From Longimicrobiales bacterium (GTDB lineage Bacteria; Gemmatimonadota; Gemmatimonadetes; Longimicrobiales; RSA9): DNA of 64,000 nucleotides. Numbering within the stretch: position 1 is the first letter of the stretch; each line of letters starts with the position of its first letter. Both the position numbers and the translations under genes were made by a program. The notes under the pieces are model-generated. The model had not been told where the DNA came from. It ran no database searches and was given only the letters and a program-made list of their open reading frames with translations. Where the stretch lies: contig DATHUY010000160.1 in assembly GCA_035461765.1 (NCBI GenBank), forward strand, positions 1 through 64,000. The letters run 5' to 3'. Shown here piece after piece: positions 8,901-25,833 of this stretch.

Positions 8901-11900
8901 CTACCGGTAGAGCCACACGCGCATCAGCGACAGCAGCTGCTCCGTATCCACAGGCTTGGTGATGTAGTCCGACGCGCCGGCGGCCAGTGTCTTCTCGCGA
9001 TCACCCTTCATGGCCTTGGCCGTGACCGCGATCACCGGCAGTTCCCTGAAGCGGGGGATCTCGCGAATGGCGCGCGTCGTCTCGTAGCCGTCCATCTCCG
9101 GCATCATCACGTCCATCAGCACCAGATCGATGCCCGGATGCGATTCCAGCTGCGCGAGCGCATCGCGTCCGTTCTCTGCGAACACCACGTTCATGCCGTA
9201 GGACTCCAGGAGGCTCGTCAGCGAGAAAATGTTGCGCACGTCGTCATCGACGATCATCACGTGCTTCCCCGAGAACGCCGGCTCGCTGCTGTGGAGCCGT
9301 TCCAGCATGCGGCGCTTCCCTTCCGGCAGCCGCCCTTCAACGCGGTGCAGGAAGAGCGCCGTCTCGTCGAGCAGCCGCTCGGGTGACTTCACGTCCTTGA
9401 CGATGATCGTTTCGGCATAGCGCTTCAGCTGCGTCTCCTCCGCGGGCGACAGGTCCTTGCCCGTGTACACGATGATCGGCAGGTCCTCCGCGCCGGGCGT
9501 GTCCTTGATCTGCTCCAGCAGCGTAAACCCGCTCATGCCCGCGAGCCCGAGATCTAGCACCATGCAGTCGAAGCGTGTGGCAGCGATCTGCTCGAGCGCC
9601 TCCTCGGCGGAGCCGACAGCGGTGATCTCGACGTCATCGGCACCGATCAGCTCGATCATGCTCTGACGCTGTGTGTCGTCGTCCTCCACGACCAGAAGCT
9701 TGCGCACGTCCGTCGCAATGAACGTCGAGATCTGATCGAACGCCTGGTCGAGCGCTTCCTTGCTGACCGGCTTCTCGAGATAGGAGATCGCGCCCTGCTG
9801 CAGCCCGCGCTGCCGCTTCTCCATGCCGCTCACGATGTGAACGGGTATGTGCCGCGTGGCGGACTCGTGCTTGAGCCGGTCGAGCACCGTCCACCCGTCG
9901 ATCACGGGCAGATCGATGTCGAGCGTGATGGCATCCGGCATGTAATCACGGGCCAGCTCCAGGCCCGTTTCGCCATCGAGCGCGACGAGACCCTTGAAGC
10001 CCTTCTCACGCGCCATGTCCAGCAGGATACCGGCGAACGTGACGTCGTTCTCGATCATCAGCACCACGCGGTCATCCATGCCGATGCTGCCGCGGTCATC
10101 ATGAACCTGCGGCACGTGCGCGCGTGGCTGCGCCGGCTTCGGGCGCGGCGCCGGCTCCGATGCGCCATACTCGGGCGCCACTTCCGGCTGGTCGAGTGTC
10201 AGCGGCAGCAGCAGTGTGAACGTGCTGCCTGCTCCCTCCGTGCTCTCCACGCGGATCTCGCCGCCGAGCAGTCGTGCGATCTCGCGCGAGATCGACAGCC
10301 CGAGGCCCGTGCCGCCGTATTTCCGCGACGTGGTGCCATCCGCCTGCTGGAACGCCTCGAAGATCAGTCGCTGCTTGTCCTTCGGTATACCTATTCCGGT
10401 ATCGCTCACAGCCAGCGCCACGACCGCCTCGGCCTCGTTCAGCGACTCGACCGTGAAGCGCCGCGTCTTATCCGCCGGCCGCAGTGTGAGCCGGACCTCG
10501 CCAGTGTCCGTGAACTTCACTGCGTTCGCGACCAGGTTCTTCAGGATCTGCTGCAGCCGCTGGCCGTCCGTCTCCATTGACGCCGGCAGGGCGGGATCCA
10601 CGTCCACGACCAGCTGCAGACCCTTCTCCTCCGCGAGCGGCTGAAAGCTGCGCCGCACGAACTCGCGGATCTCGTCGAAGCGGACATCGGACACGTTGAT
10701 GTCCATGCGCCCGGCCTCGATCTTCGACAGGTCCAGCACATCGTTGATCAGCGCCAGCAGGTCCGTGCCCGCGCCCAGGATCGTCTGCGCGTATTCCACC
10801 TGCTTCGGCGTGAGATTCTGCTCCTGGTTCTCCGTCAGCAGCTTGGCCAGGATCAGCAGCGAGTTCAGCGGTGTGCGCAGCTCATGGCTCATGTTCGCCA
10901 GGAACTCGCTCTTGTAGCGTGACGACACCGCCAGCTGCTCCGCCTTTTCCTCCAGTGCCAGCCGCGCGGCTTCGACTTCCTCGTTCTTCTGCTCGACCTT
11001 CTTGTTCTGCTCCGCCAGCAGTGAAGCCTTCTCCTCCAGCTCCTCGTTGACCTGCTGCAGCTCCTCCTGCTGTTCCTTCAGCGTCTCCTCGCTGGCCTTG
11101 AGGGTGCGCGCCTGCGACTCGAGCTCCGCGTTCGTCACGCGCAGCTCTTCCTGCTGCGCCTGCAGCTCCTGCGACTGACTCTGCAGCTCCTGCGTCAGCT
11201 TCTGCGACTGCTGCAGCAGCTCCTCCGTGCGCATGTTCGCCGTGATCATGTTGATCACCACACCAACGGTCTCTGTCAGCTGGTCCAGGAAGATCTGGTG
11301 GATCTGACTGAACTGGTTGAATGACGCCAGCTCGATCGCACCCTTCACTTCGCCCTCGAACAGGATCGGCAGCACCACGATGTTGCGCGGCGGCGCTTCG
11401 CCCAGCCCCGAGTTGATCTGCACGTAATCTTCGGGGACGTTCGTCAGCATGATCGCCTTCTTCTCGATCGCCGACTGCCCGACCAGCCCCTCGCCTGGCG
11501 CGAACCGGTTTGCCAGGTGCTTCCGCCGCTTGTACGCATACGACGAGATCATCTTCAGCACCGGCTCATCCCCGTTCTCCTGGTCCATCAGGAAGAACGC
11601 GCCGTGCTGTGCCGATACCAGCGGTGTGAGCTCGGACATGATGAGCCGGGAGACGGCCCCCAGGTCCTTCTGCCCCTGCATCATGCGCGAGAACTTGGCG
11701 AGGTTGGTCTTGAGCCAGTCCTGCTCCTCGTTCTTGGCGGTCGTCTCGCGCAGGTTGCCTATCATGCGGTTGACGTTGCGCTTCAGCTCGTCCAGCTCGC
11801 CACGCGCATCCACCGTGATGATGCGGGTGAGGTCGCCCTCCGTGACGGCGGTCGCGACGTCCTTGATGGCGCGCACCTGCGCGGTCAGCGAGTTGGCCAT

Positions 11901-14327
11901 CGCGTTCACGTTTTCCGTCAGGTCCTTCCAGGTGCCGGCGACGTTCGGCACTTCGGCCTGGCCGCCCAGCTGACCCTCCGTGCCGACCTCGCGCGCCACG
12001 CGCGTCACCTCATCGGCGAAGACACTGAGCCGGTCGACCATCGTGTTGATGGTGTCCTTCAGCTCCAGAACCTCGCCCTTCACGTCGACCGTGATCTTCT
12101 GGGTCAGGTCACCGGCCGCGACCGCCGTGGTGACGAGCGCGATGTTGCGCACCTGGCCGGTCAGGTTGCCGGCCATGAAGTTGACGTTGTCCGTCAGGTC
12201 CTTCCATGTGCCGGCGACGCCCGGCACGCTCGCCTGCCCGCCGAGGACGCCTTCCGTGCCCACCTCGCGCGCCACGCGCGTCACTTCCGACGCGAACGCG
12301 CCGAGCTGATCGACCATCGTATTGATGGTGTCCTTCAGCTCCAGGATCTCGCCGCTCACGTCCACCGTGATCTTGCGTGACAGGTCGCCGCGCGCCACGG
12401 CCGTCGTCACGTCTGCGATGTTGCGCACCTGCGCGGTCAGGTTGCCGGCCATCGAGTTGACGCTGTCGGTCAGGTCCTTCCACGTGCCTGCGACGCCCGG
12501 CACGCTCGCCTGCCCGCCCAGGTTGCCTTCCGTGCCCACTTCGCGTGCAACGCGCGTCACCTCGGACGCGAATGCCGAGAGCTGATCGACCATCGTGTTG
12601 ATGGTGTCCTTCAGCTCCGCCACCTCGCCGCTCACGTCCACCGTGATCTTCTGCGTCAGGTCGCCGCGTGCGACCGCCGTCGTGACATCGGCAATGTTGC
12701 GCACCTGCACGGTGAGGTTGCCCGCCATTGCGTTCACGCTGTCCGTCAGCGCCTTCCACGTACCCGCGACATTCGGCACCTCGGCCTGGCCGCCCAGCTG
12801 GCCTTCCGTACCGACCTCGCGCGCGACGCGCGTCACCTCCGACGCGAACGCGCCGAGCTGATCGACCATCGTGTTGATGGTGTTCTTGAGCTCGAGGATC
12901 TCGCCCCGGACATTGACCGTGATCTTCTGGCTGAGATCGCCATTGGCGACGGCAGTGGTGACGAGCGCAATGTCACGAACCTGCGCGGTCAGGTTGCCCG
13001 CCATGAAGTTGACGTTGTCCGTCAGGTCCTTCCACGTACCCGCGACGTTCGGCACCTCCGCCTGACCGCCGAGCACGCCCTCGGTACCGACCTCGCGCGC
13101 CACGCGCGTCACCTCGCCCGCAAACACGCGCAGGCGATCCACCATGCTGTTGATGACTTCCTTGATCTGCAGGATCTCGCCGCGCACATCGACCGTGATC
13201 TTGCGCGTGAGGTCGCCATCCGCGATCGCCGTCGCGACGGCCGACACATCACGCAGCTGGACCGTGAGGTTGCCCGCCATCGCGTTCACGTTGTCGGTCA
13301 GGTCCTTCCACACGCCGGCAACGCCCGCGACTTCGGCCTGACGACCGCCCAGCTGTCCCTCGGTGCCGACTTCGCGCGCGACGCGCGTCACTTCCGACGC
13401 GAATGCGGACAGCTGGTCCACCATCGAGTTGATGGTGTCCTTCAGCTCCAGCACCTCGCCCTTCACATCCACCGTGATCTTCCGGCTCAGGTCGCCGTTC
13501 GCGACCGCCGTCGTCACTTCCGCAATGGCGCGCACCTGACTCGTGAGGTTGCTCGCCATCGCGTTGACGTTGTCCGTGAGCTCGCGCCACACGCCCGCTA
13601 CGCCTTCCACACGGGCCTGCCCGCCCAGCTTGCCGTCCGTGCCCACCTCGCCCGCGACGCGCGTCACCTCGGACGCGAACGCGGACAGCTGATCGACCAG
13701 CGTGTTCACCGTCGTGCCGATGCGGAGGAACTCGCCCTGCACCGTCTTGCCGTCGATCTCGAGCACCATCTTCTGCGACAGGTCGCCGCGCGCCACGGAG
13801 CTGAGCACCCGCGCGACCTCCGTCGTGGGCTGCATGAGGTCGGTGATCAGCATGTTCACGGCTTCCACGGTCCGGCCCCAGTCTCCCGAGGTGTCCTGGA
13901 GCGAGGCCCGGTCGTTCATGTGGCCCTGCCGGCCCACCGTCGTGCTCACGCGGCTGATCTCTTCCGTCAGCCGGGCGTTCTGGTGCGCGATGCCATTCAC
14001 GGCACGCGCGATCCCGGCCATCAGCGGATCGCCCGCTTCAGGCAGCCGGGCCGCGAAATCACCCGCCTGGATCCGCCGGAGCTGATCGAGCAGATCCTCG
14101 AGGTCGTAGCTCGTCACCACGGTCGCACTGCCGGCCGGGCGCCGGCGCTTCGTCGCGGGGCCGGCCTTCGCGCTGGGGCGAGCCTTCGTCCCGGCGCGGC
14201 GCGAGCCAGTGGCGCGGGGACCATCGCCAGGCGGCGATCCGGCGGCGCGGCCCTCATCGGCGCCCTGTTCGGTGTCCGGGTGGTCCGGCGACTCGCCCTC
14301 GCCGGCCGGTCTATCCTGCAAAGCCAT
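8901..14327 (-). CDS. HAMP-array hybrid histidine kinase (multi-HAMP, GAF, HisKA, HATPase, three REC)
   Basis: 1808 residues with no membrane segment. After a 70-residue basic, Pro/Ala-rich tail comes a HAMP array of about 92-residue units (roughly 78-865): seven EVTRVAxEVGTxG blocks alternate with eight xGDLxxKITVD blocks. Then follow a GAF domain (about 885-1030), a Gln/Glu-rich coiled coil (1032-1134), HisKA (His1148 in NMSHELRTP), HATPase (about 1252-1377) and three receivers (about 1420-1537, 1550-1670, 1690-1808; Asp in [23 protein letters not shown]). The layout matches the Nik1/group III osmosensing type, which senses through cytosolic HAMP arrays. The start has AGGAG five bases upstream. 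It heads the operon with cheR, cheB and the REC-PAS kinase. Confidence 0.95.
11736..13670 (-). repeat. Coding tandem repeat, seven 276-bp HAMP units
   Basis: Within the HAMP-array kinase the 92-codon unit is repeated seven times in nearly perfect register; one unit carries a single extra codon (GGRQ instead of GGQ). Recurrent blocks such as [13 protein letters not shown] and [20 protein letters not shown] are almost invariant. The array is translated and not a CRISPR; the high similarity between units suggests recent unequal crossing-over or gene conversion. Confidence 0.9.
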
Positions 14328-15882: not shown

Positions 15883-17084
15883 TCAGCGGCTGGAGAGCGA
15901 TGCGCCGATGTTGTCGTCGAAGAAGGCGTCGAGCGCGGTCGCGAACGCCATCGCGAATGCTGAACGCTGCGGCCCCGGCGCACGCACGGGCAGCGGTAGC
16001 TGGAGCGACACGGCGCTCACGAGGCTGCCGTCCCGCGATCCGTAGCGGGCAGTCGTGAACGTCCCCGCCAGGTAGTCGGCGCCGTCGGGTGCGGCGCGCG
16101 CCGGACTCGGAACGCTTGCGTACCCCGCCTCGTCCAGCACGCCGCCGAGGCTCCGCTCGCCGCGCACGACCCTGGCAAACGAGACCTCCCCGCGCGCCGC
16201 GTCGCGGATGGAGCTTTTCAGCATGTAGGCCGAGCCGTTCAGCGTGAAGTCCGATTCGGTCAGGTCCCCGGGCGTGAGCAGGTAGCCCAGCTGGACCGCG
16301 TCGTCACCGGTGTCATGGCCGTGCACGTCGACGATCAATCCGCGCACGTTACCGTCTTCCAGGCGCACACGCGCGGCGGCGAGCAGCGCGTGGTATTCCC
16401 GCCACGTCCGCCGCGCGACCGGATGTACGGGCGGACCCGGCAGCGCCCGGTCCACGTCCATCATGTCGCGGATCAGGTGCGACACCAGCACGGTCGGCCG
16501 GCTCGTCTGTGATGCGAACGCGTCCACGATGGCCGATGCGACATCTGCGGTGTACGCATCCGGCGCGCCGCCGTCAGTGCGCACAGGCACCGCTGCCGGC
16601 GTCAGTGTCCCGCCGTGCGGTGCCGTGACGATCACGGGAAGATCGCCGACCGTCATCTCGACCAGACCGTCCGTGCCGACGTAGGTCACGCCGGGCTCGA
16701 GGCCCGTTGCCGACGCTCTGAAGCCCGTGGTGGCGGTACCGGATCGTGCCTGGAGGATGTTCGCACCGGGACGAGGGCCCAGGTACCAGACTGTGCTGAC
16801 CAGGCCGTTCTCGTCGGTCAGCATTTCCTCCGTGTTCTCGACCCAGCCGTCGCCGGTGGCGACCTGGAACGTCACCGGCACGCCAGCCTTGTTGCGACCG
16901 GAGGCATCCTGTGCCTGCACGACCATGCGGATCGGCAGTGCCATGGCCACCGTACCGATCTGCTGGTCGCCGTCCTGCCGCACCAGAGCGATCTGTTCAT
17001 TGACGCGCGTCGCCGGCGCGACCGTCTGATCGCCGCATGCGACGGCAGCGACCGCGAGGAGCAGGGACAGCGAGCGGACTCTTC

Positions 17085-17088
<4 letters not shown>
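15883..17088 (-). CDS. Lipoprotein with Ig-like domain and N-formylglutamate amidohydrolase-like domain
   Basis: 401 residues: a signal with lipobox AVAAVAC (Cys18), an Ig-like Big_1-type domain (about 30-130, VPVTFQVATGDGWVENTEE then TDENGLVSTVWYLGP), and a C-terminal domain (about 140-395) with VIVTAPHGGTLTP, SHLIRDMMDVDRA, LIVDVHGHDTGDD and FTTARYGSRDGS. This order resembles N-formylglutamate amidohydrolases, zinc hydrolases that use HGG and Arg/Asn-rich motifs. The combination with an Ig-like stalk on a lipoprotein is unusual. Its ATG overlaps the kinase stop (ATGA), making it third gene of the ECF/kinase operon. Substrate is unknown. Confidence 0.72.
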
Positions 17089-19654
<2,566 letters not shown>

Positions 19655-19658
<4 letters not shown>

Positions 19659-20221
19659 GGGGTCGCCTGCATGTAGGTGTAGAGCCATGTCCGTGCGCGC
19701 GTCCAGTCGCGCTTCACGGTGCGCACCGATACGCCCATCACATCCGCGATCTCTTCGTAACTGAGCCCGCCGAAGAACCGATACTCCACCAGCTGACACT
19801 GGCGCTCGCTCAGCCGGCGCAGGCGCTCCATGGCATCATTGAGCGCCAGCAGGTCCGCCACGGGCGTGTCCACCGCTATCTGAACGCGGTCGAGCGACAC
19901 GTCCTCCTGGCCACCACCTCGCTTCTGCACGCTGCGCGCGCGCGCATGATCGACCAGGATGAAGCGCATGGCGCGCGACGCCAGCGCAAGGAAATGCCCA
20001 CGGTCGCTGGCGCCCGCCCCCTCGTGATCGGCCAGCCTGAGGTACGCCTCATGGACCAGCGCCGTCGTGTTCAGCGTTTCGCCCGGCCGGTTCCGCCGGA
20101 GCCGCTGCCGCGCGATCTGGTGCAGCTCCGCATAGACCCGGGAATAGACCTGGTCGAACGCATCGCGATCCCCGGCGCGCGCGGCGGAGAGAAGGTGCAG
20201 CGTCAGCTGGTCAGCAGGCAT
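19655..20221 (-). CDS. ECF-type RNA polymerase sigma factor (TIGR02999-like)
   Basis: 188 residues. Region 2 is seen as DAFDQVYSRVYAELHQIARQ with LNTTALVHEAYLRLAD, and region 4 as ECQ-type CQLVEYRFFGGLSYEEIADVMGVS followed by VRTVKRDWTRARTWLY (helix-turn-helix). The HEAYLRL and DHARARSVQKRGGG patterns are typical of the planctomycete/acidobacterial ECF-like group that is encoded beside Ser/Thr kinases. No anti-sigma gene is present; regulation by the coupled kinase is inferred. A likely sigma-70-type promoter lies about 50 bases upstream. Its stop overlaps the kinase start. Confidence 0.95.
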
Positions 20222-20272: not shown

Positions 20273-20302
20273 ACTTTACCTGCGCGGAGAGCCTGCGGTC
20301 AA
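20273..20302 (-). promoter_or_regulatory. Predicted promoter of the ECF/kinase operon
   Basis: Read on the minus strand, TTGACC (20302-20297) and TAAAGT (20278-20273) are separated by 18 bases, close to a housekeeping promoter. Transcription would begin near 20266, giving a leader of about 45 bases before the sigma-factor ATG. No other gene could use it in that direction. Confidence 0.5.
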
Positions 20303-20421: not shown

Positions 20422-22746
20422 ATGTCCCCCACGACCCGAGCCTGGCTCGCCGCCCTCAGCCTGCTGGCCGCCTGCGACGGCGATCCCACCGCCCCAATGC
20501 ACGATGTCGGCCCCCCTCAGATGATGGTGGCGCCTTCTGCCGCCATTACCGGGGGCAGTGCGGCCGCCCCCGGGAACGGCTCGCTGGACAGCCTCATGGA
20601 TGGTGCGTTCACGTTCCTCGCACCGTTCGCTGCCGGGCCGACATCCGGCGAGTTCGACCCCTCCGTGCTCACGGCGCTGGTTCTCGAGGTCTGCGAGATC
20701 TCCGCGTGTGACGGCCCTCCCATCGCCACGTACACGTCCACGACCGGACCCGGCTCGGAGACGATCCGGGTCAGCGAGCTGGAGGAGCTGTTCATCGTCA
20801 ACTGGATGCCGTCGGACCTCGGACTTCCGAGTCCGGCCACATACCGCCTGCGCGTCCGCGTCGCAGGCCTGGCGCTCGGTCATGTCGATGTGCAGCTGGT
20901 GAGCAACGGCAGCGACCTGCGCAATGCCGCGACCGGCGAGACCCTCGCGTTCCTCGACCGGCGCGGCGTTCCCGTGAAGTTCTCCGTCCGCCGGAACGTC
21001 GCCATCTCTGCATGGCTGCGGGTTGCCGCAGGCGCGTCGGCCGCCGATATCGCGGATCTGCTCGTCACGGATGGCGGCCTCGATGCGGCCGCGACGGCGT
21101 CCATTCTCGTCTCGTTCGGCTACCCGGCCGCTGATGTGGCTGTCATCCTGCGCGATGTATTCGCCTACACGGCCGACGAAACGGTGGCGGTCCTGCGCGG
21201 GCTCGGTGCCGACGCGTTCGACATCGGCGCAGCGCTCGTGACCGGACTCGGCCATACGGTCGAGGAATCGGCGGCATTGCTCTCCCGCAGTGGCTTCGAC
21301 GCCGAAACTGTCTTTGCTGCGACGTACCGGGTGGGTGTCGATGTTCTGGGCAATCCCGTGGACTTCGCGCTGCGGGTCGCCGTGGCCACCATGCATGGCC
21401 TCGGCTACGCGCTGGACGACTTCAGGGACGGACTGCTCGGCGGGCTGCACGCGTGGTCGGAGGAGAACATCACCGACGCACTCGGCCTCTCCGGCTACGC
21501 CATGAGCGACCTCGTCCCGTTCATGCTCGATGTCATGGGCCTGACCGTCGACGTCGTGATGGCGAAGGCAGAGTCCTGGGGTGTTCCCCTGTCCGACGTC
21601 GTCGACGCCCTCGTCGACGCCGGTGCCGCAATCGAGGACATCGCCGCAGGCGCCGTCGCCGCCTTCGATGCCACGTCAGCCGAGCTCGGCCAGGCACTCG
21701 CCGACGCCGGTGCGACCGCGCTCGAGATCGGCACCGCGCTCATGGACGCGTACAACCAGACGCTCGATGAAACGGCGGTCACGCTCGGGACCCTCGGGTT
21801 CCAGGCGGAGGCTGTCTTCAACGCTGTTTACGACCTCGGTGTGAACGTCCTCGGCAATCCGGCGGACTTCGCCCTCAACCTCGCCCTCGCCGTGATGAAG
21901 GGTGCGGGCTATACGCTGAACAACTTCCGCGACGCACTGATGGATCCGCTCCGCGCCTGGACGCAGGAGAACATCATCGATGCGCTCGGCCTCTCCGGAT
22001 TCGCCACGGAGGATCTGGTCGATTTCATGATCAACACGATGGGAATGACGGCAGACCGGGTGGCAGATATCGCGCAGCGATGGGGCGTGCCGGTCGATGA
22101 GTTCGTCGCCGCGATGTATGCCGCCGGTCAGCAGGTGGAGGACTTCGCGGATGCCATGATCGACGCCTGGGGCATGACCGATGAGGCCGCCGTCGCGGCA
22201 CTGAAGGACGCGGGCTACCTCGCCGCCGACGTGGGTGAATGGATCTACGGTCGCCTCTCTTCCGGCGGCACCCTCGCGTTCGAGAACGCGGCGAAACTCC
22301 TGGCGGACGCAGGTTACGCGTTCGACCACGTCGCCGCGTGGGTCTGGACGAGGGCCGGCGGCGTGACGGACCGCGCCGTGGTCGTGCTCCGCTACGGCGG
22401 ATACAGCGCGCGCGAGATCACGCGATTCCTCTTCGACACGGCCGGCCGGACGGCCCGTACGATATTCGTCGCGCTGAAAGCCGCCGGCTTCGCTGCGGCC
22501 GACGCTGCGGAGGCCGTCTTCCTGGAGGCCGGGGCGTCACTCGTTCAGGTCGGCGCCTGGCTCTCCGAGGTCTACGGCCTCGCCGTTGACGCGACGCTCG
22601 GCATCCTCTCCGCCCTCGGCGCCACGCTCGGCGACATGATCAGCGTCGCATCCGGCGTATACGGCGCGACGCTCGACGAGGCGACGGCACTGCTCACACA
22701 GTTCGGCTTCTCCGTGGTCGACATCATCGCAGGATGGGCCGGTTGA
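20422..22746 (+). CDS. Large helical-repeat (alpha-solenoid-like) lipoprotein
   Basis: 774 residues. A lipoprotein signal (lipobox LLAAC, Cys18) is followed by a beta-type domain (about 60-190) ending NAATGETLAFLDRRGVPVKF, then about 580 residues of roughly 30-36-residue helical hairpins. The hairpins repeat a pattern like AADVAVILRDVFxxTADETVAVLRxLG. Residues 264-420 and 433-589 are a long internal duplication at an offset of 169, both containing VLGNPxDFAL, AWxxENIxDALGLSG and WGVPxxxxVxA. Composition is acidic, Ala/Gly/Val-rich, without Cys in the repeats. I know no named family for the array. It is transcribed divergently from the ECF/kinase operon, which may regulate it (inference). The ATG follows GAAGGAG. 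Confidence 0.8.
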   Translation: MSPTTRAWLAALSLLAACDGDPTAPMHDVGPPQMMVAPSAAITGGSAAAPGNGSLDSLMDGAFTFLAPFAAGPTSGEFDPSVLTALVLEVCEISACDGPPIATYTSTTGPGSETIRVSELEELFIVNWMPSDLGLPSPATYRLRVRVAGLALGHVDVQLVSNGSDLRNAATGETLAFLDRRGVPVKFSVRRNVAISAWLRVAAGASAADIADLLVTDGGLDAAATASILVSFGYPAADVAVILRDVFAYTADETVAVLRGLGADAFDIGAALVTGLGHTVEESAALLSRSGFDAETVFAATYRVGVDVLGNPVDFALRVAVATMHGLGYALDDFRDGLLGGLHAWSEENITDALGLSGYAMSDLVPFMLDVMGLTVDVVMAKAESWGVPLSDVVDALVDAGAAIEDIAAGAVAAFDATSAELGQALADAGATALEIGTALMDAYNQTLDETAVTLGTLGFQAEAVFNAVYDLGVNVLGNPADFALNLALAVMKGAGYTLNNFRDALMDPLRAWTQENIIDALGLSGFATEDLVDFMINTMGMTADRVADIAQRWGVPVDEFVAAMYAAGQQVEDFADAMIDAWGMTDEAAVAALKDAGYLAADVGEWIYGRLSSGGTLAFENAAKLLADAGYAFDHVAAWVWTRAGGVTDRAVVVLRYGGYSAREITRFLFDTAGRTARTIFVALKAAGFAAADAAEAVFLEAGASLVQVGAWLSEVYGLAVDATLGILSALGATLGDMISVASGVYGATLDEATALLTQFGFSVVDIIAGWAG

Positions 22747-24969: not shown

Positions 24970-25833
24970 ATGAAGGCCGGCGCTCTCGCGAAGTACATAT
25001 CGAATCTGGGGTACGGCAGCCGCCGTGAGGTCATGGCAATGATCGCCCGCGGACGTGTGACGAACGCTGCCGGCGACGTGCTCCGGCATGACGATCCGAT
25101 CGATCACGACGACGTGAGGGTGGATGGCGAGCCGCTCGATCCTCCGGCCGGCGCACTGCTGATGCTGCACAAGCCGGTCGGATGCGTGTGCTCGACGAAG
25201 GACGTGAACGCCGTCGTCTACGACCTGCTGCCACACAGGTTCCTGCACCGTTCCCCCGTCATTGCACCCGTCGGACGCCTGGATGCGGACACGTCGGGAC
25301 TGCTGCTCATGACGGATGATGGATCGCTCAACCATCTCATCACGTCACCGCGCTCCCATCTGCCCCGCGTCTACGATGTCTCGCTGGCGGATCCGCTGCG
25401 CGGCGATGAGGCCGCGATCTTCGCGAGCGGCACACTGCTGCTGAAAGGCGAGGAGACGCCGCTGCGGCCGGCGGAAATGGACGTGGTCAGTGAGCGGAAC
25501 GCGCGCGTGACGCTTCACGAGGGGCGCTATCATCAGGTGCGCCGCATGTTCGCCGCCGTCGGCAACCGCGTCGTGGCACTGCACCGCAGCCGCCTGGGGC
25601 CGCAGGACCTGGGTGATCTGCCCGCAGGTGAGTGGCGCATGCTCGGACCCGGGGAGGTCGATGCGATCCGCACGGAGATCGCTGCGCTGCGCACGCGTTC
25701 CGCGCAGGAACGATCGGCGACTGCAGAACGGTCTGCGACGGCAGAACGGTCGGCGGCGGCGGAACGATCCGCGACGTCGGAACGGTCAGCGACTGCAGAA
25801 CGATCGGCGACTTCAAAACGGTCGGCGACGTGA
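24970..25833 (+). CDS. RsuA/RluB-family pseudouridine synthase with repetitive C-terminal tail
   Basis: 287 residues from ATG 24970. An S4-like RNA-binding domain (about 5-60, LAKYISNLGYGSRREVMAMI) precedes the synthase domain with the catalytic Asp in APVGRLDADTSGLLLMTDDG, LMLHKPVGCVCSTKD and GRYHQVRRMFAAVGNRV. The enzyme isomerises uridine in rRNA, probably 16S U516 or 23S sites. The last 42 residues are seven copies of a six-residue unit (AERSAT and variants), highly charged and probably disordered. The stop overlaps the GTG start of the methyltransferase (GTGA), coupling two RNA-modification genes. The start could lie upstream, but MKAGALAKYI fits the family N-terminus. Confidence 0.9.
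   Translation: MKAGALAKYISNLGYGSRREVMAMIARGRVTNAAGDVLRHDDPIDHDDVRVDGEPLDPPAGALLMLHKPVGCVCSTKDVNAVVYDLLPHRFLHRSPVIAPVGRLDADTSGLLLMTDDGSLNHLITSPRSHLPRVYDVSLADPLRGDEAAIFASGTLLLKGEETPLRPAEMDVVSERNARVTLHEGRYHQVRRMFAAVGNRVVALHRSRLGPQDLGDLPAGEWRMLGPGEVDAIRTEIAALRTRSAQERSATAERSATAERSAAAERSATSERSATAERSATSKRSAT
25705..25830. repeat. 18-bp coding tandem repeat (AERSAT x7)
   Basis: Seven in-frame 18-base units encode QERSAT, AERSAT, AERSAA, AERSAT, SERSAT, AERSAT and SKRSAT at the very end of the pseudouridine synthase. The units differ mostly at third positions and in ACT/ACG. The array ends exactly at the junction with the next gene. Confidence 0.9.

Follow-up and report, generated by a model that had tools for sequence, protein, structure and literature searches.

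In the 64,000-nucleotide stretch of DNA analyzed here (the window), we read one gene as encoding an envelope lipoprotein whose helical solenoid serves as a scaffold and as an exchangeable module, and which is a likely output of an ECF43-like regulator; we regard this joint reading as reasonably probable. The repeat that builds the solenoid matches no named family, either by sequence or among the natural solved structures listed, and it is known from the window's own phylum and from four other bacterial phyla. The gene is present in one full-length copy in its own genome (4.68 Mb, 171 contigs) and has the following features.

20422..22746, plus strand: lipoprotein gene, 774 aa (open reading frame; GGAG ribosome-binding site just 5' of the ATG)
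20464..20475, plus strand: lipobox LAAC (LLAAC), residues 15-18 with Cys 18, then acidic residues (CDGD) (sequence; relatives alike in layout)
20599..21003, plus strand: N-terminal domain, residues about 60-194, ending in the P-x-K-F-like VPVKFSV (homology to other lipoproteins)
21004..22743, plus strand: predicted helical solenoid with a 29-residue period, residues 195-774 (autocorrelation, AF2 models, four-unit profile)
21076..21732, plus strand: duplication copy 1, residues 219-437 (ungapped self-match)
21580..22236, plus strand: duplication copy 2, residues 387-605, at an offset of 168 and overlapping copy 1 (ungapped self-match)

The lipobox named in a preliminary description of this DNA is indeed present in the 774-residue frame, and the protein is probably lipid anchored in the cell envelope. 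An acidic residue stands shortly past the lipobox cysteine in 35 of 36 lipoproteins with this N-terminal domain (N-domain), resembling the surface-export signal of Bacteroidetes, with four proteins only as the control.

The N-domain and the divergent operon

The segment ahead of the solenoid had been described as a beta domain. Its strands are not directly confirmed (four strands at a pLDDT of about 25 to 45 in single-sequence AF2 models, in which the N-domain folded without confidence), and what stands is a domain conserved by homology. A three-sequence profile matches 72 of the 395 genomes of the phylum, nearly always across the N-domain only, and the C-terminal partners are RCC1 propellers, Big_2, Laminin_G_3, subtilase, unassigned regions, or the solenoid. 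On these comparisons, the N-domain is a separate mobile module. Its P-x-K-F-like end recalls NF038114 (PxKF), to which several relatives show weak matches (E, 7e-4 to 8e-3) that are partial and under the curated cut-off (17 to 20 versus 35 bits); the window protein itself gave no match to NF038114, and we found no description of a PxKF domain in the open-access literature.

Of 63 N-domain loci, 14 have a kinase gene at most 300 bp from the N-domain gene. At a background density of about 7 kinases per Mb (538 kinases in about 77 Mb from 20 genomes), roughly 0.3 of the 63 loci would be expected, although the kinase-adjacent loci are not independent, because a single family of the phylum accounts for much of this set. 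The recurring neighbor of kinases is the N-domain, rather than the solenoid. Each of the two clear N-domain lipoproteins of the window's own genome is divergent from an NTTA-type ECF gene. The second of them (642 aa, no Pfam match; contig C158, L062 7007-13159) is encoded 135 bp from its divergent NTTA ECF gene and is convergent with a kinase gene downstream of another NTTA ECF gene. In L104, L112, and L118, N-domain lipoprotein genes occur as tandem pairs, flanked on one side or on both by kinase genes.

The neighborhood on the other strand of the window reads as follows.

19655..20221, minus strand: ECF sigma factor, TIGR02999/PF07638, 188 aa (Pfam, NCBIfam)
20060..20071, minus strand: NTTA, residues 51-54 of the ECF factor, sigma region 2.2 (comparison with ECF43 motifs)
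20273..20302, minus strand: sigma70-like promoter TTGACC-18-TAAAGT, facing the ECF gene (motif search)
17085..19658, minus strand: Ser/Thr kinase; single predicted transmembrane helix, TPR region at the C terminus (Pfam; start inferred)
15883..17088, minus strand: 401-aa lipoprotein, likely in the same operon as the kinase (4-bp overlap with the kinase stop)

The divergent arrangement across 200 bp and the ECF promoter had both been proposed earlier and are borne out here: the promoter (minus strand, 20302-20273) lies 51 bp upstream of the ECF start and had 0 counterparts in 50 shuffles. It points to the ECF gene; no promoter was found for the lipoprotein gene, and no promoter motif shared across divergent ECF regions was seen. 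The start of the kinase gene (PF00069, E=4.6e-43) and the stop of the ECF gene overlap in the sequence ATGA, and the kinase runs from the kinase domain through one hydrophobic segment into the TPRs. The 401-residue lipoprotein shows weak matches, under cut-off, to FGase (N-formylglutamate amidohydrolase) and Big_1. At least 16 such ECF genes exist in the same genome, and most of those examined are directly followed by a kinase gene. Elsewhere in the window, inspection by eye revealed an 1808-residue hybrid histidine kinase (8901-14327), in which numerous tandem HAMP-like units precede GAF, kinase, and receiver-like regions, as well as low-complexity (A/S/T)ERSAT repeats (25700-25833) at the C terminus of a pseudouridine-synthase-like reading frame.

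ECF43 factors carry STTA or QTTA in region 2.2 where the canonical motif is DAED, and the threonine is phosphorylated by the adjacent kinase (PMC8999054, PMC13147305). Likewise, the window factor has an uncharged, threonine-containing motif in place of DAED and an adjacent Hanks-type kinase gene. The best explanation of this motif and this neighbor is that the factor is ECF43-like, and by analogy the kinase may phosphorylate it.

The preliminary description had paired the solenoid with the ECF-kinase operon. The operon is real, but the solenoid is not its conserved partner. In two other genomes with orthologous operons (G005 and G011; ECF 60 to 61% and kinase 43 to 44% identical), the divergent slot holds another secreted protein and another lipoprotein, both unrelated to the solenoid, which therefore is exchangeable cargo rather than a fixed partner. 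The check suggested in the preliminary description, whether ECF-kinase operons elsewhere have the same divergent neighbor, thus fails for the solenoid and holds, in a weaker form, for the divergent position alone. No ECF or kinase neighbor accompanies the solenoid relatives in G132 and Deinococcus, and the relative in G182 adjoins a BTAD regulator. These observations bear on the alternative that the lipoprotein is a cognate co-sensor, whose solenoid would bind the extracytoplasmic TPRs of the kinase and relay a ligand signal. Such a role would fit the divergent adjacency of the two transcription units, the frequent occurrence of N-domain genes next to kinases, and the position of the TPRs beyond the membrane helix of the kinase. 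However, the orthologous kinases face different secreted proteins and some solenoid relatives have no kinase neighbor, and we consider co-sensing unlikely.

The 29-residue repeat

Autocorrelations of hydrophobicity and glycine over residues 195-774 give a period of 29 residues; 14/15 is also high, the half-units being of 14/15 residues, and there is no peak at 10. The helical hairpins proposed earlier are confirmed in the AF2 models; their period of 30 to 36 residues is corrected to 29. The internal duplication, too, is real, given that residues 219-437 and 387-605 are identical at 96 of 219 positions (44%), with an ungapped score of 446, whereas none of 40 shuffles exceeded 60. The offset is 168 instead of the proposed 169, and the duplicated block is larger than the 264-420/433-589 first delimited; the motifs VLGNPxDFAL and WxxENIxDALGLSG, noted at the same time, are both found in each copy.

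In AF2 predictions made without an alignment, the full protein reached a pLDDT of 59.5; large parts of the solenoid lay at 70 to 90, and the residues ahead of 205 scored low. Residues 530-774 alone reached 83.5, with 17 helices of 9 to 13 residues and an all-helical model. On these models, the solenoid is predicted to be an all-helical, repeating fold, as the preliminary description had supposed for residues 195-774. Foldseek searches of the PDB placed designed helical repeat proteins first by E-value, with very low TM-scores; among the matches listed, no natural solved structure reached a TM of 0.5 (best TMq, about 0.32 for the confident model), and a viral library returned nothing at E < 0.001.

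Sequence searches with the 774-residue protein gave no match over cut-off in Pfam (TPR, HEAT, ankyrin, and Sel1 included), NCBIfam, or PHROGs, and nothing below E=0.3 among PDB sequences; nor did we find a description of the 29-residue repeat in the open-access literature. The earlier statement that no recognizable repeat family applies thus holds for these databases and for the natural solved structures listed. As an isolated novelty, the solenoid does not stand, because its repeat is shared by proteins of five phyla. When the window protein was left out of the training set, a four-unit profile scored the solenoid of that protein at 142.5 bits; among the controls, 500 shuffles reached at most 7.7, the reversed sequence 0.4, and the TPR region of the kinase 0.0. 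A two-unit profile likewise detected the protein above shuffles; a one-unit profile did not.

D. taeanensis and D. peraridilitoris encode full-length relatives on plasmids, and others are present within the window's own phylum, which looks like Gemmatimonadota, in genomes G132 (E=2e-122) and G182; the layout of lipobox, N-domain, and repeat is common to G132, G182, and D. peraridilitoris. In Deinococcus QL22 the repeat makes up a short protein, and in Herpetosiphon, Hymenobacter, and Priestia it forms the C-terminal tails of large proteins, behind unrelated N-terminal regions. The latter are hypotheticals with a long body and a helical-repeat tail (L025 1650-5990, L125 2614-7197, L027 514-3510) and have no Pfam match over cut-off; an assignment of Herpetosiphon Haur_5003 as a DUF6603 protein was dropped, there being no such Pfam match. 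At E < 1e-6, the repeat is present in 5 of the 395 genomes of the phylum, and besides G000 none belongs to the window's genus, family, or order. Profile scans of genome contigs and viral contigs confirmed no further relative, and no phage match to the window protein was found.

We hold it to be quite unlikely that a named family (UBA-like, mTERF, TPR, or HEAT) includes this repeat as a divergent variant. PF24899 (UBA_DHX29) exceeds its cut-off in P0002 and P0003 through partial matches, repeated in Deinococcus relatives, and weakly matches 8 of 13 repeat blocks; the likeness consists of a short helix, a G-F turn reminiscent of the UBA M-G-F loop, and a helix with A-L. However, the model describes one three-helix domain of 55 positions, of which the best stretches cover 23 to 30 (9-31 and 8-37, in relatives only), so that no complete UBA unit is seen. 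The window protein, which has no PF24899 match, is a tandem 29-residue solenoid in a lipoprotein, and among the Foldseek matches listed no natural one attains a TM of 0.5.

That the solenoid is a structural spacer or envelope-filament protein without a specific ligand strikes us as distinctly improbable. Relatives vary in length and may have near-identical repeats (P0006), and their presence is sporadic, as a spacer might allow, but the window duplicates have diversified rather than been homogenized. A beta-helix of the DotG/IcmE decapeptide type, signaled by the LKxAGFxA motif, is scarcely credible: the DotG decapeptide region is the best PDB sequence match of the repeat-block profile (E=1.4e-4) and PF25296 weakly matches 5 of the 13 blocks, but no individual DotG stretch is significant alone, the periods are 29 and 14/15 in place of 10, and the AF2 model contains helices only.

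Proposed role and known systems

In the scaffold reading that we favor, the lipobox is followed by a mobile presentation domain (residues about 60-194) and then by a predicted rigid superhelix of 29-residue alpha-hairpins, most likely an extended protein- or polymer-binding scaffold and one among several swappable C-terminal modules of a lipoprotein platform. We identified neither a ligand nor a conserved patch on the surface. The ECF factor would be phosphorylated on the threonine of its NTTA motif by the membrane kinase, whose TPRs would lie on the opposite side of the membrane, and the lipoprotein, as a presumed member of the regulon, would most likely be an output of this ECF43-like regulator. 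More tentatively, and as a possibility that we would not yet call probable, the repeat may represent a natural alpha-solenoid class (a 29-residue unit of two pseudo-equivalent 14/15 half-repeats) that is shuffled across five phyla. On surface lipoproteins it would then act as an interchangeable tip for ligand binding, and the genes of these lipoproteins would be swapped at a fixed divergent slot next to ECF43-type kinase regulators.

No Pfam, NCBIfam, or PHROGs entry describes the 29-residue repeat. Since this uncatalogued repeat is found on different scaffolds in five or more phyla, hypotheticals from every one of them would gain an annotation through a curated model. The near-identical units of the G132 protein would suit repeat-protein engineering, and secreted proteins that replace one another next to one orthologous sigma-kinase operon make it possible to test modular surface display governed by a phospho-activated sigma factor.

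Among known proteins, the designed helical repeat proteins 8cws, 5cwb, and 7rdr resemble the solenoid in their regular stacks of alpha-hairpins and have the best Foldseek E-values. In contrast to the solenoid, they are artificial, and their very low TM-scores to its model mean that they are not a structural match. With the ECF43/kinase systems EcfP-PknT and EcfK-PknS, the window shares the lack of an acidic DAED motif and a kinase gene immediately downstream; it differs from them in the TPRs that its kinase carries past the membrane helix and in the divergently encoded secreted protein, which is exchangeable.
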